A stretch of DNA of 64,000 nucleotides from Candidatus Brocadia sp. (lineage in GTDB: Bacteria; Planctomycetota; Brocadiia; Brocadiales; Brocadiaceae), in NCBI GenBank assembly GCA_021646415.1, contig SOEU01000006.1:1-64000 (forward strand), read 5' to 3'. This document shows positions 22,973 to 35,010 of the stretch, piece by piece. Positions within the stretch are counted from its first letter, which is position 1; each line of letters begins with the position of its first letter. The notes under the pieces were generated by a model that worked only from the letters and a program-made list of their open reading frames with translations, was not told the DNA's origin and searched no databases. Position numbers and translations under genes: made by a program.

Positions 22973-25573
22973 TTAAATTTTTGTACAGGTTCCCATGCCT
23001 TTCGCTATAGGGTTAAAGATGTCTGTGTCTTTTGACCTTGCGTTAATACTGCTATTGGCACCTATACTATTCACTGGCAGGCCAATATAAAAATCTGTTC
23101 CAATCCCTTCCTTGCTTTCTACATAAATGCCTCCCTCATGATCCTTTATAATTCTGTACACAACGGCAAGGCCGAGTCCGGTGCCTTTATCTTTATTCGA
23201 AAAGAAAGGTTCGAAGATATGTGAAATCTTTTCAGCAGGTATACCCGTACCATTATCTGAGATTTTTATAACAAAATACTGCTTACTCAGATTATTTGAG
23301 AGAGACGAGACAAACGAGAAGAATACGCTGCCAGAGTGTTCTTTTGCCATCCTTTTAAACTCCGAAAGATTATCAACCAGGTAAGTGCTTACCTGAATAT
23401 GTCCCTTGCTTGACAATGCATCAAGGCTGTTTTGCAGAATGTTTAAGAACACTTGTTTTACCTTGTCTTCATCTGCAATGAGTTGGCATCTATTTCCGTC
23501 TAACATTGTTGTTATCTCAATATCTTTCTTTGCAGCATCATTCTTTAACAAGTTTATAGTATCCATTATCACACAATGGGGATCTATGTGTTGTATAACG
23601 AGCTTTGAAGGTTTTGCCAGATTTAACATATCTTCGATAATTCTGTTAATTCTTCCTATTTCCTTTAAAGCAATTTCCCGAAAATTACTGTGGAATTCCG
23701 GATCGTCTTTCTTGTATGGAAGCAGTTGAAAATAAGTGTTTATGGCCACAAGGGGATTTTTTATCTCGTGGGCAATATTAGAAGCAAGGGAGCCCAAATG
23801 GGCAAGTCGGTCGGCATGTTGCTTTTCCACCTGAAGTAATTTTAATTCGGTTTGGTCTGTCAGAATTATCAATGCCCCAAGCTTCTCTCCGGATTCGGTT
23901 TTGAGCTGTGTTATGGTTACACTGCACGGGACCCTGGTACTACCTCTTTCAATAAAAGTTTCAATGTCAGTATGATCTCTATTATTTTTAAGCGTATATT
24001 TCAATAGTTTGTAAATATCGTTATTAAGGGCATTCAGTATCATTTCAGTTGAACTTGTACTTTCCAGTCCCAGGATATTTCTTGCCTCATTATTTAAAAG
24101 GGTAACCTCTTCATGATTATTTATCGTGATAACCCCACACTTGAGACTCTGAAGGATATTCTCCCTGTAGGTCTTGGCTTCTTTCAACCCTGAGTAGAGG
24201 CAAGCATTATTAGCTGCCATAGCCAATTGACCCGAAAAGGCGAGGAACATCTGGATATCTTCTTGTGTAAATACCTTTTTATCAACCTTTTTACCCAATA
24301 GAATTATGCCAAAGAGATCTTTCCCGTGAAGGATAGGGATACAACTATCTACATCCATTGATATTAATGTTTTTTCTAACAGACGGTCAAGCTTATCATG
24401 CGAAAAGCGATTTAACTGTTCCCGTGAGAGAACAGTTTTATTTTGGCAAAGCCACGTAACAACAGCAGCATCGCCGGGAAGGAATAAATCTTCTTTGGAT
24501 GAAAAATTTATAGCTGCCTTTAAACTGTATTGTTTGATTTTTTCATCCTTTATTAGTATTGCTATCTTCTCGATACCTACGGAATCATATAAATATTGAA
24601 TTGCAAAACGGAGAAGTCTATCCAAATCATGAATAGATGAAAACATTACTGTAGAGTTACTGAGTATTTTTGGATAACTATACTTGGTATGGAACAGATG
24701 ATTCTCGATAAAGTGGTGAATTGATTCCCGGGCAGGCACAAAGATTAAGACCATTATTATGATTGAAATTACATTACTAACCGTCTCTGTATACTCTGAT
24801 ACAGGAAGTATATTACTCACAACGAGCCCAACGGCAAAATAGATTAAGCTGAGGATAATAGAGAGAATAGCGTAAACCGTGCTTTTCTTGATTACTACAC
24901 TAATATCCATAAGGTGATACTTTACAATAGCGTAAGCCACTGCTGTCGGGATAGGGATAGTAACCAGGGGCACAAAGCTCTCAACTTGCCATATTCCCAT
25001 TGCCGGCAAGAGGAAATTCGTGATGGCCCCCAGGAGCACAGACACTGCTACTCCAAAGTATAAGTATTGAATCTGTAATCTTTTTATTCCATAAAAGCGT
25101 ATGCTTTTTTTATAAAGAACATACAAAGAATACACCATACATACTATGAAGTAAGACCAGAATACAGGAAATAATGGACCATACTTTGCTTGTGGTAATC
25201 GATTGATGAAGGACAAAGTCTCGACAATAGAAGAAGAAGAGAACGCCAAAACGATACTTACGATGAAGAAAATTATGCTAAAGTATCGGTCGATAGGTCT
25301 TTCCACGCGATCGGGAAAGACGGAAATAAAAAAGAAAAAAGCAGAAGGAATAAAGGCGGCCGCACAAAAAACCAATTTCAGCCTGAAGGCAGCCAACACA
25401 GGGTCTGCAGCCTGAAGTGTAAAAAAAACAAGGAATGACCAAACACAGAAAACATTCGCAACGATACAAAATCTTTTGTTAATGACGCTGGAAGGATTTC
25501 TCAAGAATACAAAAAATCCAAGCCCTGCGTATAGCAAAGATATGAAAATGTTCACGATGTGGGTTGCAAGCAT
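22973..25573 (-). CDS. Membrane sensor histidine kinase (7TM-GAF-PAS-HisKA-HATPase)
   Basis: 866 residues. Seven to nine hydrophobic segments cover residues 5-280, followed by a GAF domain (about 310-460), a PAS domain (about 470-580), the H-box AHLGSLASNIAHEIKNPLVA with H602, and the ATPase domain with NGTGIPAEKI, FEPFF and GTGLGLAVVY. The architecture resembles PrsK-type kinases of exosortase/PEP-CTERM systems. It is the last gene of the minus-strand ketosynthase operon, 12 bases after a ketosynthase stop. It probably phosphorylates the NtrC-type regulator encoded near the start of the same operon; this pairing is an inference from synteny. Confidence 0.92.
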   Translation of the reverse strand: MLATHIVNIFISLLYAGLGFFVFLRNPSSVINKRFCIVANVFCVWSFLVFFTLQAADPVLAAFRLKLVFCAAAFIPSAFFFFISVFPDRVERPIDRYFSIIFFIVSIVLAFSSSSIVETLSFINRLPQAKYGPLFPVFWSYFIVCMVYSLYVLYKKSIRFYGIKRLQIQYLYFGVAVSVLLGAITNFLLPAMGIWQVESFVPLVTIPIPTAVAYAIVKYHLMDISVVIKKSTVYAILSIILSLIYFAVGLVVSNILPVSEYTETVSNVISIIIMVLIFVPARESIHHFIENHLFHTKYSYPKILSNSTVMFSSIHDLDRLLRFAIQYLYDSVGIEKIAILIKDEKIKQYSLKAAINFSSKEDLFLPGDAAVVTWLCQNKTVLSREQLNRFSHDKLDRLLEKTLISMDVDSCIPILHGKDLFGIILLGKKVDKKVFTQEDIQMFLAFSGQLAMAANNACLYSGLKEAKTYRENILQSLKCGVITINNHEEVTLLNNEARNILGLESTSSTEMILNALNNDIYKLLKYTLKNNRDHTDIETFIERGSTRVPCSVTITQLKTESGEKLGALIILTDQTELKLLQVEKQHADRLAHLGSLASNIAHEIKNPLVAINTYFQLLPYKKDDPEFHSNFREIALKEIGRINRIIEDMLNLAKPSKLVIQHIDPHCVIMDTINLLKNDAAKKDIEITTMLDGNRCQLIADEDKVKQVFLNILQNSLDALSSKGHIQVSTYLVDNLSEFKRMAKEHSGSVFFSFVSSLSNNLSKQYFVIKISDNGTGIPAEKISHIFEPFFSNKDKGTGLGLAVVYRIIKDHEGGIYVESKEGIGTDFYIGLPVNSIGANSSINARSKDTDIFNPIAKGMGTCTKI

Positions 25574-25585
25574 AGCCGAACTTAC

Positions 25586-26830
25586 CTACGAGTATTTTTT
25601 TAGCACGAGAACAGCGTGTGTTCCACCCACGCTATGAGTATTTATAAGCGCAGTTTCCCCACTGAAATACCTTGCGGTGTGCGGAACATAGTCAAGATTG
25701 CAAAGCGGATCGGGTACATCAAGATTAATTGTTGGAGGAATAATACCGTTCTTTAAACTAAGGCTTGTTGCCACTACCTGGAAACCGCCTGCTGCAGCGA
25801 AGGCATGACCTGTCATGGACTTAATTGAGCTTATGGGGATGTTGTATACATGATTACCAAAGAAAGTTTTAAAGGCATTTGTTTCTGCCAAGTCATAACT
25901 AGGGATGGCGTTTCCGTGAGCACAAATATAGTCTATTTCATCTCCTCTGATTTTTCCTGTGATTAATGCCTGTTTCAGTGCAAAGAGCAACGTCTGCCCG
26001 CTTAATTCCACATGAAAAACATCTTGCGCCTCGCATGCAGTGGCATAAGATACGATCTCAGCATATATATTTGCATCTCTATTCAAGGCATGATTCAATT
26101 CCTCAACCACGATTGATACCCCACCTTCACTTGCTACGAGACCATCCCGATTCTTATCATACGGCCTCGATGCCTTCTCAGGTTCTTTATTTCTTTTTGA
26201 GAGTATTCCCAGGGAACAAAAAGTTGACAGTGCAAAGGGAAAAATCATGGCATCTGCACAACCCACAACTGCCACATCCACATCTCCGCGCTTTACCATA
26301 CTATATCCCCAGTTTACAACGTCAAGCCCGCTTGAACATCCCGAGGACAAAGTCGAATTTGGCCCATTAATCTTTAGTTCTGCACATATATAACCTGTTG
26401 CCACATGCGGTGTAACCTCTGGTGCAGTATAGCGGCCAACTGCCGTTGGGCCAGACTCCAAGAATTTCCTGTGCTGGTGTTCGTATATATCATTTTCAGC
26501 ACCTATCGTAGTTCCAAAACAAACGCCACATCTGTTACTATCCTCCTTGCTGAGATCAATACCTGAGTCCGCTACTGCCATTTTTGCCGTAGCAACACCA
26601 AAATGGCAGAACTTTGCGCTTCTTTTGACCAATTTCGGGTCAAAGTAATCACACGGGTTAAAGTTTTTCACTTCACCAGCAATCTGAGTACTGAAAGGAG
26701 TAGGATCGAAAGAGGTGATCCTCTTTATACCTGATCGTCCGTTAATAAGTGCATCCCAATATGCATCTTTTCCGTTACCATTAGGAGCTAATATTCCCAG
26801 ACCCGTAATAACGACACGTCTTTTTATCAA
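25586..26830 (-). CDS. Beta-ketoacyl-ACP synthase, FabF-like (intact triad)
   Basis: 414 residues. The Cys-His-His triad is present: C165 in STLSSGCSSGLDVV, H305 in YICAHGNAIPSYD and H342 in KSMTGHAFAAAGG. The loop after the first His (NAIPSYD rather than TSTPLND) departs from FabF, suggesting altered substrate or partner. It condenses malonyl-ACP with an acyl-ACP. The start overlaps the radical SAM gene stop (ATGA), so the two are translationally coupled. It is the third ketosynthase of the cluster and groups by position with lipid or polyene synthesis, probably not with housekeeping fatty acid synthesis. Confidence 0.92.
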   Translation of the reverse strand: MIKRRVVITGLGILAPNGNGKDAYWDALINGRSGIKRITSFDPTPFSTQIAGEVKNFNPCDYFDPKLVKRSAKFCHFGVATAKMAVADSGIDLSKEDSNRCGVCFGTTIGAENDIYEHQHRKFLESGPTAVGRYTAPEVTPHVATGYICAELKINGPNSTLSSGCSSGLDVVNWGYSMVKRGDVDVAVVGCADAMIFPFALSTFCSLGILSKRNKEPEKASRPYDKNRDGLVASEGGVSIVVEELNHALNRDANIYAEIVSYATACEAQDVFHVELSGQTLLFALKQALITGKIRGDEIDYICAHGNAIPSYDLAETNAFKTFFGNHVYNIPISSIKSMTGHAFAAAGGFQVVATSLSLKNGIIPPTINLDVPDPLCNLDYVPHTARYFSGETALINTHSVGGTHAVLVLKKYS

Positions 26831-28650
26831 GGGACTTCCCCCCCAGAAGAAATTTCTTTCTTTTTTGAAGTGAAGTTTTTTTCTGCCAGTAAACGGCTGT
26901 GTGTGTTTATTTTCTGATAGACATCATTAAGGAAGCCATAGTCTGTTGTTAAGAGAGATAAATCACTTCTCATCTTGAATTCCTCTAAACCTCTCTGCCC
27001 CAGGAATCCTGCGCTCCTCGCTGCGAGACAATGTTCGTCGGAGACGTTTACTACGTAACCCATTTCTCTGACCTTTTTCTCCATGAGTCCGGACATCTTA
27101 AGCATATCCACGAACTTTATTCCATGTAAGGAGATATTCAACTCAGGCCACGTGCTTGGATCCTTCGTCAGTTCATACTCATAACGGAGGACAGTCTGGT
27201 AATAATTATCAGGCAGATCGAATCCGAATTTTTCAGGCTCTTTTTGCCATGCAGTACCAGGAAGAGGCGCAGCCGGAGTTACAAGGACTGAATCCGGTTT
27301 GAAATTCTCATTTTTTAACTTTTGAAGTAAATACAGATTTTCTTCTAAAATTTGTTCATGGGTAATCGTGCTACCCGAAGGTATTGGGCAAGGATAAATA
27401 AAACTTACACCTACATCAAGATGTGTTCTTTGCTTGTAAGATGCCTGCTTTAGGGCTTTAACGGTATAATATATATCTTCCACAGAATTACCTTTGTCCA
27501 TAACCCTTGAAAGGATATCATTGTTCGCCGTTTCAACACCAAGGAAAACAGCTTTAAGGCCGGAACGTATGATTTTTTCATAAGCATCAGTCAGCTCAGG
27601 CATCCGTTCCTTTGCCCTGGTTTCCGCCCGGACGAACATTGAATACTCAATATGTAACCCTTCTGCCAATAAAGCCTCAGCGATCCGGCTGCTGAGAGAA
27701 ACTGGTGTTGTTGATCCTGCAAATCTGAAGAGTCCGATGCCCATCTCCATGATAGTTTCCCTGATCTCTTGCATGGTTATATTGATATCTCTGGTTTGGT
27801 ATTTTCCGGTAATATTTGGATGTGTACAAAAATTACATTTCCCATAATAGCAACCAGACGATTCATTTATTACTGCAATATTTACTTTTCCATCATCTTT
27901 TTCATAGAGAGGGAAAGGTTTTGAGTTCAAAGAAAGCCTTTGAATGAATGTTTCTTTTACCTCACCGTTGTTGTTTTTATATATCATATTAGAAATTTTA
28001 CCTGCTTCTGCAAGGTCAGTAATTCTTTTTATAACATCAGATTTAGACCCTCCCTGGGAATATAGTTCTTTTACAATATTCACAATCTGTATAAGGGTTA
28101 CTTCGCCCTCAACATCGATACAAAACTCAAAAGGGCTATTTTCCAATGTATGTGTCTTAAATTGATTAACCTGAGGGCCACCAGCAATCACCAAGGTGCT
28201 TGAACTCAGTTCTTTGACCCTTTGTGCAAGTTTTTCAGAGTAGGCAAATCTATCGCCAAGCCAGGTCTTGATCCCAAGCACTTTTACCCGATTCTCGCAT
28301 ACCTTTTGAGCCAGACCTTCAACATATTTCTCCATTTTTTCTTTGATCGCACTCGCAAGATTATTCTGGAGCAGGTCCCATTCTTGTCTTAAAGATACTG
28401 TATCTTCACACTTTTTCGTGTCAAAGACGTTCACAGCGAGTTCAGATAGCCTTGGCATAAAATCGTTTTTTGTGAATGCGGTATAAAATTCGATTCTTGC
28501 CGGGTCCTCTATAACAATGTTAAAATCCGCATTCTTACATGCCCTGGCGAGTACTCCAATACCGTTTTCCTTAAAGCAGTCACTAACGGAATAGGCCTTT
28601 CCCATGAACGAATTCCATAACATAAGGTCTACACTGCCAGAATCACTCAT
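26827..28650 (-). CDS. B12-binding-type radical SAM protein
   Basis: 607 residues. An N-terminal Rossmann-like region (KVLGIKTWLGDRFAY, STLVIAGGPQVNQF) corresponds to the cobalamin-binding domain of class B enzymes, although the DxHxxG motif is not obvious. The SAM-cleaving cluster motif is SSGCYYGKCNFCTHP with C267, C272 and C275 (C-X4-C-X2-C, as in several B12-type families). Later segments include FRFAGSTTPVSL, FLGVETANNDILSRVMDKGN and VSFIYPCPIPSGST. It sits between the acyl carrier protein and a ketosynthase, and is coupled to the latter. Radical chemistry on an ACP-bound acyl chain, such as ring closure or methylation, is a reasonable hypothesis; the reaction is not known. Confidence 0.88.
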   Translation of the reverse strand: MSDSGSVDLMLWNSFMGKAYSVSDCFKENGIGVLARACKNADFNIVIEDPARIEFYTAFTKNDFMPRLSELAVNVFDTKKCEDTVSLRQEWDLLQNNLASAIKEKMEKYVEGLAQKVCENRVKVLGIKTWLGDRFAYSEKLAQRVKELSSSTLVIAGGPQVNQFKTHTLENSPFEFCIDVEGEVTLIQIVNIVKELYSQGGSKSDVIKRITDLAEAGKISNMIYKNNNGEVKETFIQRLSLNSKPFPLYEKDDGKVNIAVINESSGCYYGKCNFCTHPNITGKYQTRDINITMQEIRETIMEMGIGLFRFAGSTTPVSLSSRIAEALLAEGLHIEYSMFVRAETRAKERMPELTDAYEKIIRSGLKAVFLGVETANNDILSRVMDKGNSVEDIYYTVKALKQASYKQRTHLDVGVSFIYPCPIPSGSTITHEQILEENLYLLQKLKNENFKPDSVLVTPAAPLPGTAWQKEPEKFGFDLPDNYYQTVLRYEYELTKDPSTWPELNISLHGIKFVDMLKMSGLMEKKVREMGYVVNVSDEHCLAARSAGFLGQRGLEEFKMRSDLSLLTTDYGFLNDVYQKINTHSRLLAEKNFTSKKKEISSGGEVP

Positions 28651-28702: not shown

Positions 28703-28966
28703 TTATCTAGATTTTGCGCTAATTTTTTCCTTCACTAGATCGGCCATCTTTTGTATTGTTAAATTTTTGCTTGCTTCTTCATTAGAAATTTCCACGTCAA
28801 ACTCTGTTTCGATATTATACAATAAATTTATCATTTCAGCTGATTCTACACCAATATCATCCGCAATATGTGAGTCATCGGTAATATCTTCAAGTTCTAC
28901 TTTCAGTTCCTTTGTTAATATTTTTTTTAGCTTTTCTTTAATCAAATTTTCTGCCACATTCTCCAT
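28703..28966 (-). CDS. Acyl carrier protein, variant attachment motif
   Basis: 87 residues from MENVAENLIKEKLKKIL; AGGAGG lies upstream of this ATG, so an in-frame start 30 codons earlier is rejected. Helix 1, the DDSHIADDIG loop, GVESAEMINLLYNIETEFDV and helix 4 all fit an ACP. The serine that takes 4'-phosphopantetheine is in GVESAEM, where most ACPs have GADSLDT: Asp is replaced by Glu and Leu by Ala. It is separate from any fatty-acid synthesis gene and lies between the ketosynthase and radical SAM genes, so it is probably dedicated to this pathway. Confidence 0.93.
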   Translation of the reverse strand: MENVAENLIKEKLKKILTKELKVELEDITDDSHIADDIGVESAEMINLLYNIETEFDVEISNEEASKNLTIQKMADLVKEKISAKSR

Positions 28967-29215
28967 TGTCCTAACCTCCTGGTTCGAAAATAAGGCCTGG
29001 TAAATAAGTGTAAACATAAATATACCAACACTATAGGACAGAAATCGCATTTTCATCGTTTCAGGGTGTTGCTAGTGCAACATGATGACTAACCCGAAAA
29101 AGTCAGAAAAAGACAAAATCCGAAGTACGAAATTCGTGAGTCAACCCTGTCAGGGTTCATTGTTTTGTTTCTGCCAGATAAATTATTGATCAGATACATC
29201 ATCTCTGCGATAGAT

Positions 29216-30454
29216 TCAGGCATTAAACCTTTTTATTATTATGGTTGAATTATTTCCTCCAAAGCCAAAAGAGTTCGAAAGAGCGGTATTAATTTCTTTC
29301 CTTCTTGCTCTATTTGCAACATAATCCAGATCGCATTCAGGGTCAGCATTTTCTAAATTTATGGTAGGAGGGATCATACCTTTTTTGATTGCTAAAATAC
29401 AGGTTATGAGTTCAACCGCGCCAGCAGCACCCATTAAATGTCCCGTCATTGACTTTGTTGAGCTTACTGGTATACTGTAAGCGTTGTTTCCGAAAACAGT
29501 TTTTATCGCCTTTGTTTCTCCCCGATCATTTGCTAATGTAGATGTCCCATGTGCATTAATATAATCGATGTCGGTAATATTCAGTTCGGCATCTTCTATT
29601 GCCAAACTCATTGCCTTACATATTTGCATCCTGTCCGGTGATGGCATGGTCATATGAAAGGCATCACTGGTTGCTCCATAACCGGCGATTTCACCATAAA
29701 TATGTGCTCCCCTTTCGCAAGCCTTTTCTTCCTTTTCAAGAATCAATATACCGGCGCCCTCACCCATTACAAACCCATCCCTGTCCTTATCAAAAGGCCT
29801 GCTGGCCTTTGTCGGTTGGTCATTTCTTTTCGACATTATTCTCAATGAACAAAAAGCCGCGAGATTAAGCGGAAAAATAGGCGCCTCAACTCCTCCGGCA
29901 AAAACGGTATCAACCTGACCTGATTGAATCATATCTCTTGCAATACCAATAGATTGATTTCCACTTGAACAAGCTGTAGCTACAACTAAGTTTTGACCTG
30001 TAAAGTGAAAAAAATCTGAAATTACACTTGCAATGTTCTTGTTTTCTGCGGGAGGTTTCGTTCGTAAAATATAATTGTTATTCTCAATTGCAGTTTTTTC
30101 ATCGTAGTATAATAATGTTTCAGCTCCTACTCCGATTGATACCCCGACTTTGTTTAAACTGCTTACTTCTAAATCTGCGTCTTGCACTGCCATTCGGGCT
30201 GCTGCTAAACCTAATTGAGAATATCTGCACAAAGTGTCGGCAAAATCATCAGACATGTATTTTTCAGGATTGAAATTCCTTATCTCACCGGCAATCTTTG
30301 TTGGATAACCTTCGACATTAAATCTCGAAATTGTTGATATTCCTGATTTCCCATTTATGGCAGATTCCCAATACGCATCTATTCCAATTCCGATTGGTGT
30401 AATGATTCCTATTCCCGTTACAACGACTCTGTTTTTTCCAATGTGTCCGCCCAT
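29216..30454 (-). CDS. Beta-ketoacyl-ACP synthase, FabF-like (KS-alpha role)
   Basis: 412 residues. Full catalytic triad: C162 in VVATACSSGNQSIG, H302 in DYINAHGTSTLANDRGET and H339 in SSTKSMTGHLMGAAGA. It is the most FabF-like of the three and directly follows the gene for a ketosynthase that lacks the triad, recalling the KS-alpha/chain-length-factor pairs of type II polyketide, aryl polyene and related systems. Role in the cell: chain extension on the dedicated ACP. A short hairpin (AACCCTGTCAGGGTT at 29138-29152) follows the gene. Confidence 0.94.
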   Translation of the reverse strand: MGGHIGKNRVVVTGIGIITPIGIGIDAYWESAINGKSGISTISRFNVEGYPTKIAGEIRNFNPEKYMSDDFADTLCRYSQLGLAAARMAVQDADLEVSSLNKVGVSIGVGAETLLYYDEKTAIENNNYILRTKPPAENKNIASVISDFFHFTGQNLVVATACSSGNQSIGIARDMIQSGQVDTVFAGGVEAPIFPLNLAAFCSLRIMSKRNDQPTKASRPFDKDRDGFVMGEGAGILILEKEEKACERGAHIYGEIAGYGATSDAFHMTMPSPDRMQICKAMSLAIEDAELNITDIDYINAHGTSTLANDRGETKAIKTVFGNNAYSIPVSSTKSMTGHLMGAAGAVELITCILAIKKGMIPPTINLENADPECDLDYVANRARRKEINTALSNSFGFGGNNSTIIIKRFNA

Positions 30455-30563
30455 TTTCTCTTAGTACAGTTCCTGTGAGTTTTGTGAATAACTGTTTCTA
30501 CCGCAGAGCATGCAAAAGATATAAATCTTTTTCACCATTCTCCACACCCTTCTGTCAATGATC

Positions 30564-31793
30564 TCAAAATCTCTTGAATAGCAGTGATACATTATTACCG
30601 TTGTAATCGAAGTTGTTTGACAGTATTGTGTTTACAGGCCTGAAATCCGGTTTTTTAAGTATAAAAATTGAACTGCATTTTGGATCAATATTCTCAAGGT
30701 TATTTGTTTGCAGTAAAACCTGTTTTTTTAAAGATAATAACGAAAAGATTGCATCAATTGGTCCCGATGCACCAATTGAAAACCCTAAACTACCCTTCGT
30801 TGAACTTACTGGAATCTTATGAACATTTTTGCCAAAAACAGACTTTATCACCTCAGATTCCTCTCTGTCTTCTCTTATTCCCGAAATACCACTTGCATTA
30901 ATATAATCCACATCTGATGGAACAGTGGACGCAGAATCCAATGCCTGTTTTATACAGGAAACTTTAGAATAAAAACCAGATTTTCTCTGATTTGCGTAAT
31001 CAGTATTACCATAAGAGACCCCGAATCCAACGAGTTCTCCATAGATATCTGCCCCCCGTTTCTCAGCGCTACTCAGCGTCTCTAAAACAATAATACCTGC
31101 TCCCTCACTCAAAACAAAGCCTTTTCTGTCAATATCAAATGGACAGCTAGCTCGATTTAAACCAGGGATATTTGAATGAAACAATCCTTTCTGTCTTAAT
31201 TCTTCAAAAACTCTTGGACACAGTGGTGCTTCAGTCCCGCCTGCAACCACTGCATCGATATCGTGCTGTTGTATTGTATTAAATGCATGAATTATTGCAT
31301 AATTCCCTGAACATGCACCGCTTGAAAAGCCTATATTAGGACCTTTAAGAGTAAATTCTATTGCAATTTCACCAGATGGGGCATTCGTAAGATTCTTTTG
31401 CATTAAAAGGGGATGAACTCTTCTTGGACCATCTTCGTAAAGCATTTTAATTTGCTCTTCTATGATGTTAAGCCCGCTAAAAGCGCTACCGATAAAGACC
31501 CCAATCTTTTCCTTGTCAAATTCGTTACCAATTTTTGCATCGGTTAATGCAATCTTTGCAGCGGCCAAAGCAAAACGGCTAAAAGTATCTGTCTTATCTT
31601 TTTTTGCTTCGGGAATACATGTTTCGGATTCAAAATCGGGCACACTGCCAGCATATACTTTTGTGTCTCTACCTTCTGTTTCGATTTGCTTAATCCCCGA
31701 TATGCCAGACAGATATCTCTCCCAGTTTTCATGTATGCCAATGCCAAGCGGGCTAACAATACCTATACCTGTTACTACTATACGTTTTTTCAT
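30564..31793 (-). CDS. Ketosynthase-like protein without catalytic residues (chain-length-factor-like)
   Basis: 409 residues from MKKRIVVTGIGIVSPLG; a longer frame begins inside the upstream gene. The overall FabF fold is clear, but an ungapped comparison with the neighbouring ketosynthase shows the nucleophile Cys replaced by Ala160 (FSSGACSGNY; the Cys seen there is one position later), the first His by Ser301 (DYINASGISGIRED) and the second His by Phe338 (STKGSLGFSIGASG). The active-site Lys (K333) remains. Loss of the triad with conservation of the fold is the hallmark of KS-beta/CLF subunits, which set chain length in a heterodimer with an active ketosynthase. It starts 7 bases after the NtrC-type gene. 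Confidence 0.88.
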   Translation of the reverse strand: MKKRIVVTGIGIVSPLGIGIHENWERYLSGISGIKQIETEGRDTKVYAGSVPDFESETCIPEAKKDKTDTFSRFALAAAKIALTDAKIGNEFDKEKIGVFIGSAFSGLNIIEEQIKMLYEDGPRRVHPLLMQKNLTNAPSGEIAIEFTLKGPNIGFSSGACSGNYAIIHAFNTIQQHDIDAVVAGGTEAPLCPRVFEELRQKGLFHSNIPGLNRASCPFDIDRKGFVLSEGAGIIVLETLSSAEKRGADIYGELVGFGVSYGNTDYANQRKSGFYSKVSCIKQALDSASTVPSDVDYINASGISGIREDREESEVIKSVFGKNVHKIPVSSTKGSLGFSIGASGPIDAIFSLLSLKKQVLLQTNNLENIDPKCSSIFILKKPDFRPVNTILSNNFDYNGNNVSLLFKRF

Positions 31794-31800
31794 CAATACT

Positions 31801-33177
31801 CTAATTCCCGGAATCTCTGATTCCATACTTTTGCATCTTGTAATTAATAATGCGCCGGGTAGTGCCAAGGAGCTTTGCAGCTTTTGATTTCACACCACCG
31901 GATTTTTGAAGCGCCTGTTCAATGAGTTGCTTTTCAACCCGCGCCACTTCATCTTCCAGGGAAATTCTCCAATTTATATTTGCTTTCACTCTTTGAAGAT
32001 TACCAGAAATACCCGTGATTTCCGAAGGTAGATATTCAGGGAGAAGGGTAGTCTCGTTGCCATAGAGAGCAATAGTTCTTTCCATTATATTTTTTAATTC
32101 CCTTACGTTTCCAGGCCAATGATATTTCGACAATGCATCCACAGCTTCTTTAGAAATAAATTCTGTTTTTGCGTGACACTCTTTTCGAAAGATGTTGAAG
32201 AAGTGTTCCACTAATTGTGGAATGTCTTCTGTTCTCTCGCGAAGGGGTGGTAGATAAATAGGAACAACGTTGATACGATAGTACAAATCTTCCCGGAAGC
32301 GTCCGTCCTTAATCATTGCTTCTAAATCTTTATTCGTTGCGGCAATTATTCGTACATCCGACTTTATAACAGAATGACTACCAACGCGGGAAAACTCTTT
32401 TTCTTGTAAAACACGTAAAAGTTTTGCCTGCAAAGGAAGATTTATCTCGCTAATTTCATCAAGGAATATGGTACCACCTTCAGCTATTTCAAACTTCCCC
32501 AATCTCCTTTCATATGCACCAGTAAATGACCCCTTCTCATGGCCAAAGAGTTCAGCTTCTAACAAGTCGCCTGCCAGATTTGGACAACTTACAACAATAA
32601 ACGGATTCTCTCGCCGGTTGCTGTCGAAGTGTATCGCACGCGCCACTAATTCCTTGCCCGTTCCGCTTTCTCCCCTTAAAAGGACCGTTGAATCCACCCG
32701 TGATACCCTGGAAACTATATCAATTATATACTCCATCATTCGACTGTGCCCGTGGATTAACCTGTCTATGGAATGGTATCTAAATTCCGAGCGGAGATAA
32801 CGAACTTCCCTGGTTAAACTTTTAAACTCCAATGCCTTTTCAATAGTTATCTTGATTTCCTCAATTTCAAATGGTTTCACAATATAATCTAAAGCGCCTA
32901 GCTTCACAGCCTCAACAACCGATTTGACGTCATTTACAGCAGTCAATACCACTACGCCTGTCTCATGATAAGAGGGTTGCAATCTCCTTAGCAGTTCTAT
33001 CCCATCCATTTCATGCATCCTCAAATCAAGCAGCACGAGATCTATGCGTTCTTTATCCAGTATCTTTAAGGCCTCTTTTCCACTATTCGTGCTTATAACC
33101 TTATAATTGTCTTTTAAGATAAGCCGCAGGGACTCTACAACACTGATTTCGTCATCAACTAACAATATGGTTTTCAT
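31801..33177 (-). CDS. NtrC-type sigma-54-dependent response regulator
   Basis: 458 residues. Receiver domain with D51 as phosphorylation site (DLVLLDLRMHEMDG); AAA+ domain with GESGTGKE (Walker A), a GAFTGA-type loop as GSFTGA, and GGTIFLDEIS (Walker B); a C-terminal Fis-type helix-turn-helix (LIEQALQKSGGVKSKAAKLL then GTTRRIINYKMQKYGI). It activates sigma-54 RNA polymerase. A near-consensus sigma-54 promoter lies upstream of the operon's first gene, so self-activation is likely. The partner kinase is probably the membrane kinase at the end of the operon. Confidence 0.96.
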   Translation of the reverse strand: MKTILLVDDEISVVESLRLILKDNYKVISTNSGKEALKILDKERIDLVLLDLRMHEMDGIELLRRLQPSYHETGVVVLTAVNDVKSVVEAVKLGALDYIVKPFEIEEIKITIEKALEFKSLTREVRYLRSEFRYHSIDRLIHGHSRMMEYIIDIVSRVSRVDSTVLLRGESGTGKELVARAIHFDSNRRENPFIVVSCPNLAGDLLEAELFGHEKGSFTGAYERRLGKFEIAEGGTIFLDEISEINLPLQAKLLRVLQEKEFSRVGSHSVIKSDVRIIAATNKDLEAMIKDGRFREDLYYRINVVPIYLPPLRERTEDIPQLVEHFFNIFRKECHAKTEFISKEAVDALSKYHWPGNVRELKNIMERTIALYGNETTLLPEYLPSEITGISGNLQRVKANINWRISLEDEVARVEKQLIEQALQKSGGVKSKAAKLLGTTRRIINYKMQKYGIRDSGN

Positions 33178-33466: not shown

Positions 33467-34921
33467 TCAGGCTGGCTGTGTGACAAGCTCATTACTTAAC
33501 ATATGAGAAATACCAGATGAGAATGTTCGGGTTTCTAAATTCTTTATTTTCGTTTCCAGTTTCTCAACATTACTTAAGCTCGATTGCAATTTCTTAATCT
33601 CACTTATATCTGAAAATATTATAATCGCTCCTAATTCACCCGCGCTATCTAATAAAGAAGTGCTCACTGCATAGGCAGAACGGGTAATGGGGTGCTCAAT
33701 CTCAGTCGCCTCATAAGTTTTTTTGTCTTTTAAAGTTCTCAGGATAATATTTGCAAATATAGAGCCAATATGTTTGACATCCTTTCCTATTACATCATCC
33801 GGAGAAATTTTGAGCATCTTTGCAGCACTTTTGTTAAAAGTATTAATCTTACCGTTATTGTTTATGGCAATTACACCGCAAGGGATATTTTCTAAGATAT
33901 TCTCATTTCGAATTTTCCTGAGATTTACCTCCCGGTAAAGAAATGCATTCTCCACTGCCATGCCTATATATCCTGCCAGCATGGATAGCAATTCGATATC
34001 CTCATCAAAGAACGTTTTTCCTGTAACCTTGTTCCCCAAAGCGATTACACAACTAAGACTCCCATGAGCAAAGATAGGAACGCACAGTTGCGATTGTAAA
34101 AGCTCTATTTCCCTCTGCATGTTTATCGCCTCACGCATAGTTAATTTGTTCGTTGCAACTTCCCTATCGATAACATCCTTATTTAATATCTGATGATTCT
34201 TGGCCAACCACTGCATGGTTCCGTGATTAATATCGAAGCACACATTTTTAGCGGCTACCTCATCCAGACCCTGGCAACGGTATAGCCGGCTTAGGCCCTC
34301 CTTTCTATATATCAGCATAAAGCCTACCCTGCCCACCCTGAATATCTCTGCCATTGCCTCAACTGTCATATCGGCAAGTTTCCCAAGATCGTGAACACGC
34401 GTTAATACCTTCGAGAACTTCTGGAAGACTTCCTTGTAGGTAAGATGCATGTCGCCGGTACTTGTTTGCTTATTACACGCCATTTCGGATAACCCATTCT
34501 CTTTCCCCACTGGCATTAAATTTTTTATTTGAGACTGAAGAAAACCCAATTCTCTTCTTATTTCGTGCTTTTCCAGGGCTCTCTGTGAGACATGCTGTAT
34601 TTCCTCTTTTCGAAGAGGTTTTTCAAGGAGTTCGTACGCTCCCATTCTCAGGGCTTCTTCGGATAGCATCGGCTGCGACTCAGGGACTAACACAACAATT
34701 GGCGGGTCAATATTCGTTTGTCTCAATTTCTCCAAGAATTTGTTTGTTCCATCATCATTTAATAAAATATCTAAAAAAATTACATCAATATCTCTTCTGA
34801 GGCATATTTGTAACGCTTCTTCAGGTGTCCTGGCAGTATAAACGATATTAACCCCATTTAAAGACTTTTTAAATAACCCACACACCGAACTATCGTTTGA
34901 GACCACCAAAAAAGAGTGCAT
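33467..34921 (-). CDS. REC-GAF-PAS regulator ending at a vestigial H-box
   Basis: 484 residues. N-terminal receiver (D51 in IDVIFLDILLNDDG), GAF domain (about 165-335) and PAS domain (about 345-450). The last residues, TFSSGISHMLSNELV, align with the H-box of the operon's kinase (SLASNIAHEIKNPLV) including the His, and then the protein stops with no ATPase domain. The GAF and PAS parts are paralogous to those of the operon kinase (NILENIPCGVIAINN against NILQSLKCGVITINN). It may act as a signal integrator or phosphate sink for the system. It is the first gene of the operon, about 75 bases behind the sigma-54 promoter. No kinase domain is found in other frames downstream (33178-33466). Confidence 0.9.
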   Translation of the reverse strand: MHSFLVVSNDSSVCGLFKKSLNGVNIVYTARTPEEALQICLRRDIDVIFLDILLNDDGTNKFLEKLRQTNIDPPIVVLVPESQPMLSEEALRMGAYELLEKPLRKEEIQHVSQRALEKHEIRRELGFLQSQIKNLMPVGKENGLSEMACNKQTSTGDMHLTYKEVFQKFSKVLTRVHDLGKLADMTVEAMAEIFRVGRVGFMLIYRKEGLSRLYRCQGLDEVAAKNVCFDINHGTMQWLAKNHQILNKDVIDREVATNKLTMREAINMQREIELLQSQLCVPIFAHGSLSCVIALGNKVTGKTFFDEDIELLSMLAGYIGMAVENAFLYREVNLRKIRNENILENIPCGVIAINNNGKINTFNKSAAKMLKISPDDVIGKDVKHIGSIFANIILRTLKDKKTYEATEIEHPITRSAYAVSTSLLDSAGELGAIIIFSDISEIKKLQSSLSNVEKLETKIKNLETRTFSSGISHMLSNELVTQPA

Positions 34922-34992: not shown

Positions 34993-35010
34993 AAGCAACT
35001 TTCGTGCCAA
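34993..35010 (-). promoter_or_regulatory. Sigma-54 promoter of the ketosynthase operon
   Basis: On the minus strand TTGGCACGAAAGTTGCTT matches the sigma-54 consensus TGGCAC-N5-TTGC almost exactly, with GG and GC 10 bases apart. Transcription would start near 34981, about 60 bases before the start codon at 34921. The second gene of the operon encodes a sigma-54 activator. Confidence 0.85.

Follow-up and report, generated by a model that had tools for sequence, protein, structure and literature searches.

A ketosynthase homologue without its catalytic triad, kept by purifying selection beside an active ketosynthase in Candidatus Brocadia

Genes and features of the locus

The window, i.e., the 64,000-nucleotide stretch of Candidatus Brocadia DNA that was analysed, contains an operon whose core genes follow one another on the minus strand in the order RR2, NtrC-type response regulator (RR), B12-binding radical SAM enzyme, KS-Z and histidine kinase (Table 1). 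Between the RR and radical SAM genes lies a cassette of three genes that encode two ketosynthase (KS) homologues and an ACP. We refer to the protein encoded at 30564-31793 as X and to the neighbouring KS, encoded at 29216-30454, as Y. The open reading frame of X, for which the first-pass annotation gave no strand, begins with an ATG at 31793, and the plus strand over the same interval is full of stop codons.

In all complete loci X, Y and ACP are adjacent and in the same order; in genome G018, RR and X are additionally separated by a gene whose putative product is an outer-membrane protein. In eleven genomes of the family, the radical SAM enzyme, KS-Z and the kinase are encoded and X, Y and ACP are missing altogether. 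The sigma-54 element, 73 bp upstream of RR2, matches all ten fixed bases; and since 15 of 17 loci have a similar element ahead of RR2, the operon is probably under sigma-54 control.

Table 1. Features of the operon and of X in the window (residue equivalences are to E. coli FabF).
Feature	Position	Strand	Basis or remark
Sigma-54 -24/-12 element TGGCACGAAAGTTGCT	34994..35009	-	no mismatch
Response regulator with GAF and PAS domains (RR2), first gene of the operon	33467..34921	-	
NtrC-type sigma-54-dependent response regulator (RR)	31801..33177	-	stop 7 bp ahead of the ATG of X
X-Y-ACP cassette	28703..31793	-	its three genes occur together or not at all
X: FabF-like ketosynthase of 409 aa, degenerate; proposed KS-beta (chain-length-factor-like) subunit	30564..31793	-	domains, alignment, AF2 model
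GPRRVHPLLMQ segment of X, aligned to FabF 125-135	31398..31430	-	invariant in 7 intact copies; docking roles from PMC7138838
Ala160 codon, nucleophile position (FabF Cys163)	31314..31316	-	alignment; A/G/T across orthologues
Cys161 codon, nucleophile position +1 (FabF 163+1)	31311..31313	-	alignment; invariant in all X copies
Ser301 codon (FabF His303)	30891..30893	-	alignment; invariant
Lys333 codon (FabF Lys335)	30795..30797	-	alignment; kept
Phe338 codon (FabF His340)	30780..30782	-	alignment; F/Y/L across orthologues
Y: ketosynthase, proposed KS-alpha	29216..30454	-	keeps Cys-His-Lys-His and the GFGG gate; 4-aa deletion where X has its docking/pocket loop
Cassette ACP	28703..29056	-	G-[VA]-E-S phosphopantetheine motif conserved; translation probably starts near 28966
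B12-binding radical SAM enzyme (operon core gene)	26827..28650	-	
KS-Z: third ketosynthase	25586..26830	-	Cys-His-His here, Cys-His-Gln in most orthologues
Membrane histidine kinase (7TM, GAF, PAS, HisKA)	22973..25573	-	domains

The Cys-His-His form of KS-Z occurs in the window and in five other X-bearing genomes, and these constitute one clade; the Cys-His-Gln form occurs in every genome examined that lacks X, as well as in the X-bearing G001 and G018. Presence of X and of the His in KS-Z change in the same direction in independent pairs, of which there are only three, and the association is not significant. One metagenome-assembled genome (G007) contains two additional radical-SAM/KS-Z/kinase copies (L066 and L067, on contigs C105 and C104) that resemble those of other genera and are perhaps contamination.

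Replaced catalytic residues in a conserved fold

Both the N- and C-terminal ketoacyl-synt domains score in X, and the equivalences in Table 1 come from an alignment of X and Y with E. coli FabF and 28 other non-X KSs. The first-pass annotation had claimed that Ala160, Ser301 and Phe338 take the places of the catalytic residues, that the lysine is retained, and that a Cys lies one position past that of the nucleophile: the alignment with Y, FabF and the paralogues bears out each of these readings. Lacking the nucleophile and both catalytic His, X is incapable of condensation by the known mechanism. Against TIGR03150, the curated FabF equivalog model with a curated cutoff of 493.75 bits, X scores 361.8 bits, which is under the cutoff, and Y scores 506.7, which is over it.

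An AF2 model of X (pLDDT 87.5, pTM 0.91), together with a fold search, gives a thiolase-type KS fold along the whole protein; an earlier model from 7 rows (pLDDT 42.5) was set aside. The best fold matches in the PDB are all FabF, with Z about 60, and the chain length factor (CLF) of the actinorhodin synthase (1tqy_B) matches the model with Z 59.4, an rmsd of 1.8 and 29% identity. By sequence, X is nearest to FabF and not to polyketide synthase subunits, and no CLF chain was recognised among its 60 best sequence matches. Bacillus subtilis FabF (4ls5/4ls6), with 37% identity to X, shares the fold over its full length and the lysine at position 335; X differs from FabF in that the triad, Thr305, Thr307 and the GFGG gate are all replaced, and Asp265 is lost in nearly all copies.

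Two other pairs of an active and a degenerate KS are present in the genome of the window, L034/L035 and L037/L036, in which the degenerate members carry Val-Asn-Glu and Phe-Asn-Glu; these residues match those reported for Kuste3606 and Kuste2805 (PMC2649909). X resembles this type in being a degenerate KS beside an active one in an anammox genome, but its residues are Ala, Gly or Thr, then Ser, then Phe, Tyr or Leu, its operon is another one, and it is much rarer. A close relative of L034 and one of L035 occur together in PDB 9s5h and 9s5i, of which 9s5h is absent from the best 50 fold matches listed for the X model; in the literature we found nothing on these two entries, nor on chain length factors in anammox bacteria. 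A further KS-like match (L039, G000:C1:63747-64436) falls within an open frame of 2846 aa, possibly a type I polyketide synthase.

Orthologues, selection and history of X

Among 392 genomes searched across the phylum, X was found in only seven. The intact copies number seven including that of the window, to which are added one frameshifted copy (G004) and one truncated copy (G032). The six other intact orthologues, which come from separate assemblies (five from genomes of the same genus and one from G018, of another genus), are 67-85% identical to X, that of G018 being 67% identical, and each is without all three catalytic residues; those of the contigs that bear names are labelled Candidatus Brocadia. 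The truncated G032 copy likewise lacks all three, and no copy retains any one of them at a position that is readable. The nucleophile position is occupied by Ala in Brocadia, Gly in G018 and Thr in the G032 fragment, that of the first His by Ser in all copies, and that of the second His by Phe, Tyr or Leu. Of the Ala/Ser/Phe set, then, only the Ser is invariant, and what is constrained is the loss of the triad rather than the exact residues that replace it.

Pairwise dN/dS values, obtained by two methods, are 0.08-0.17 for X and 0.07-0.15 for Y, such that X is under purifying selection to about the same degree as Y. The earlier suggestion that X has a selected, non-catalytic role with its fold retained is thus supported by the AF2 model, the fold matches and the dN/dS values alike. 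These values also bear on whether X is a decaying pseudogene or a product of sequencing or assembly errors. The G004 copy has six stops, and in G032 both X and Y are truncated and adjoin a transposase-like gene, as would be seen in a gene undergoing decay. However, X is open in seven genomes with dN/dS of 0.08-0.17, and the G004 copy continues in another frame at 72-83% identity; because RR, RR2 and CinA of this region are split as well, we treat its stops as assembly indels. Sequencing error, which the first-pass annotation had named as something that might explain the changes, is excluded by the multiple separate assemblies in which the triad is lost, and so is the other outcome that it had named as refuting, orthologues with Cys-His-His retained. 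Given that the triad is lost across copies that evolve under constraint, we regard X as neither an error nor a pseudogene: such an origin is extremely improbable overall and, for the intact copies, is ruled out by their open frames and dN/dS.

The G032 copy belongs to a genome from another family of the same order. Its locus (L047, 1-2760) retains X from residue 111 onward and the first 102 aa of Y, beside the transposase-like gene, and is a copy that has decayed and was possibly transferred.

The divergence of X in G018 is about that of the core genes around it, and the history of X fits vertical descent with repeated loss. One such loss is likely in G005, whose RR is 96% identical to that of the window but in which a 234-bp gap stands in place of the cassette: about 9 bp within this gap still match the beginning of X, and in trees of RR2 and of the radical SAM enzyme G005 branches next to the window, amid genomes that carry X. 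When positions 25000-26800 are compared with the corresponding locus of this genome (L055), which is without X-Y-ACP, identity is 69-79% across KS-Z and the beginning of the kinase gene, as compared with 84-96% in most of the flanks, a tract that is likely due to recombination. The best tree puts X alone on a long branch, separate from L035 and L036. Since AU tests reject neither a single clade of X and Y (p = 0.66) nor one of X with L035/L036 (p = 0.28), we make no claim as to the origin of X.

Complementary conservation and a proposed KS-alpha/KS-beta pair

In the structure of AcpP with FabF, the ACP is docked by Arg127, Lys128 and Arg206 and by a hydrophobic patch that includes residues 129-132, and the ACP is contacted mostly by the monomer to which its acyl probe is not crosslinked (PMC7138838). 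Conservation among orthologues of X and Y is complementary. The segment corresponding to FabF 123-146 has an identity of 0.87 in X and 0.60 in Y, with a 4-aa deletion in every Y; over the docking stretch itself (127-132), X reads RRVHPL without variation in the intact copies and Y reads LRTKPP, and the invariant PRRVHPLLMQ of X spans both the ACP-docking and partner-pocket portions. The reverse applies to the gating/Thr270 loop (FabF 262-280; 0.49 in X, 0.92 in Y) and to FabF 206-222 (0.54 in X, 0.89 in Y), and in Y the gate loop has a conservation of 1.00 and the active site is invariant. A mirror-tree approach was uninformative and was set aside as evidence of pairing: pairwise distances of X correlate with those of Y at 0.85, which is below the values for RR (0.92) and for KS-Z (0.97), with which X correlates best.

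Because X keeps the docking/pocket segment and Y keeps the active site, we read the two as a KS-alpha/KS-beta heterodimer, in which X is probably a non-catalytic, chain-length-factor-like subunit paired with Y and served by the ACP of the cassette. The pairing is also favoured by the loss of the triad under purifying selection, by the constant adjacency of X, Y and ACP and their joint absence elsewhere, by the two further active/degenerate pairs of the genome (relatives of L034 and L035 sharing PDB entries), and by the likeness of the X model to FabF and to the actinorhodin CLF. Under this model, whose two-fold geometry is taken from FabF, Y would perform the decarboxylative condensation, and X, across the dimer interface, would offer a platform for docking of the ACP as well as a loop that closes the acyl pocket of Y, which could set the chains that Y accepts and the length they reach. 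The cassette would then feed an operon that also encodes a B12-radical-SAM enzyme and KS-Z, and whose product is therefore probably an acyl chain with modifications, either a lipid or a polyketide-like compound; from the radical SAM gene, this chain may be methylated or altered by some other radical reaction. One observation that counts against the pairing is that X also conserves pocket loops of its own (the Ser301 loop and residues 393-401), such that its pocket may be in use.

These loops lend themselves to another explanation, namely that X has acquired a new catalytic or covalent role in which Cys161 holds or transfers an acyl group, or in which a reshaped pocket with a Ser/aromatic lining promotes cyclisation of an ACP-bound chain modified by the B12-radical-SAM enzyme. 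A role in cyclisation has been proposed for AmcG, which, like X, accompanies an active KS and an ACP and is without the functional motifs (PMC10698177); AmcG is reported to be without some of the secondary structure elements of a CLF (PMC10698177), whereas X keeps a complete FabF fold. That Cys161 is invariant while the residue before it varies among Ala, Gly and Thr, and that a Cys at this position occurs in none of the 30 non-X KSs in the comparison, would be expected if this residue were reactive, though it may instead be structural. With no His at either position and with both its gating loop and Asp265 degenerate, X is very unlikely to carry out a ketosynthase reaction, and we consider a new role of this kind unlikely. 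If true, however, X-Y would represent a new type of KS pair and point to a new anammox lipid.

Given the histidine kinase and two response regulators of the operon, and the conserved docking segment of X, X might alternatively bind ACP as a scaffold or sensor without Y, for example by relaying acyl-ACP status to this two-component system. Such a function is quite improbable: the regulators persist in genomes without X, Y and ACP vanish together with X, and the complementary deletion in Y would be left unexplained. The anammox host itself raises the prospect that the cassette serves specifically in the making of ladderanes, for which atypical FabF paralogues have been proposed as candidates (PMC2649909). 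The candidates in Kuenenia carry other active-site residues (PMC2649909), and the cassette is missing from most genomes of the anammox family, including other Brocadia, and therefore is no general requirement for ladderanes; we give this connection very little credence.

A non-catalytic KS paired with an active KS is an arrangement familiar from polyketide synthases. Among the closest known systems is the actinorhodin CLF (1tqy chain B), which likewise has a FabF fold without the nucleophilic Cys and whose gene adjoins those of an active KS and an ACP. X differs from such CLFs in the residues at its triad positions, in being nearest to FabF by sequence, and in residing in an operon of an anaerobic planctomycete along with a radical SAM enzyme. 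We therefore liken X to a CLF with respect to its proposed function, and claim no descent from CLFs.

Anammox bacteria make unusual lipids whose biosynthetic routes are obscure. A KS subunit with its whole triad replaced is here found in what is probably an anammox lipid operon, where it is kept by selection, most likely for pairing with Y. X-Y adds a third kind of active/degenerate FabF pair in these organisms, with different replaced residues, and offers a readable signature for a division of labour, in which the docking and pocket-closing segment is conserved in one subunit and the active site in the other. Because the cassette is optional among Brocadia, its product could be revealed by comparing the lipid profiles of close strains that have it and that lack it, which is otherwise difficult in organisms that do not grow in pure culture.
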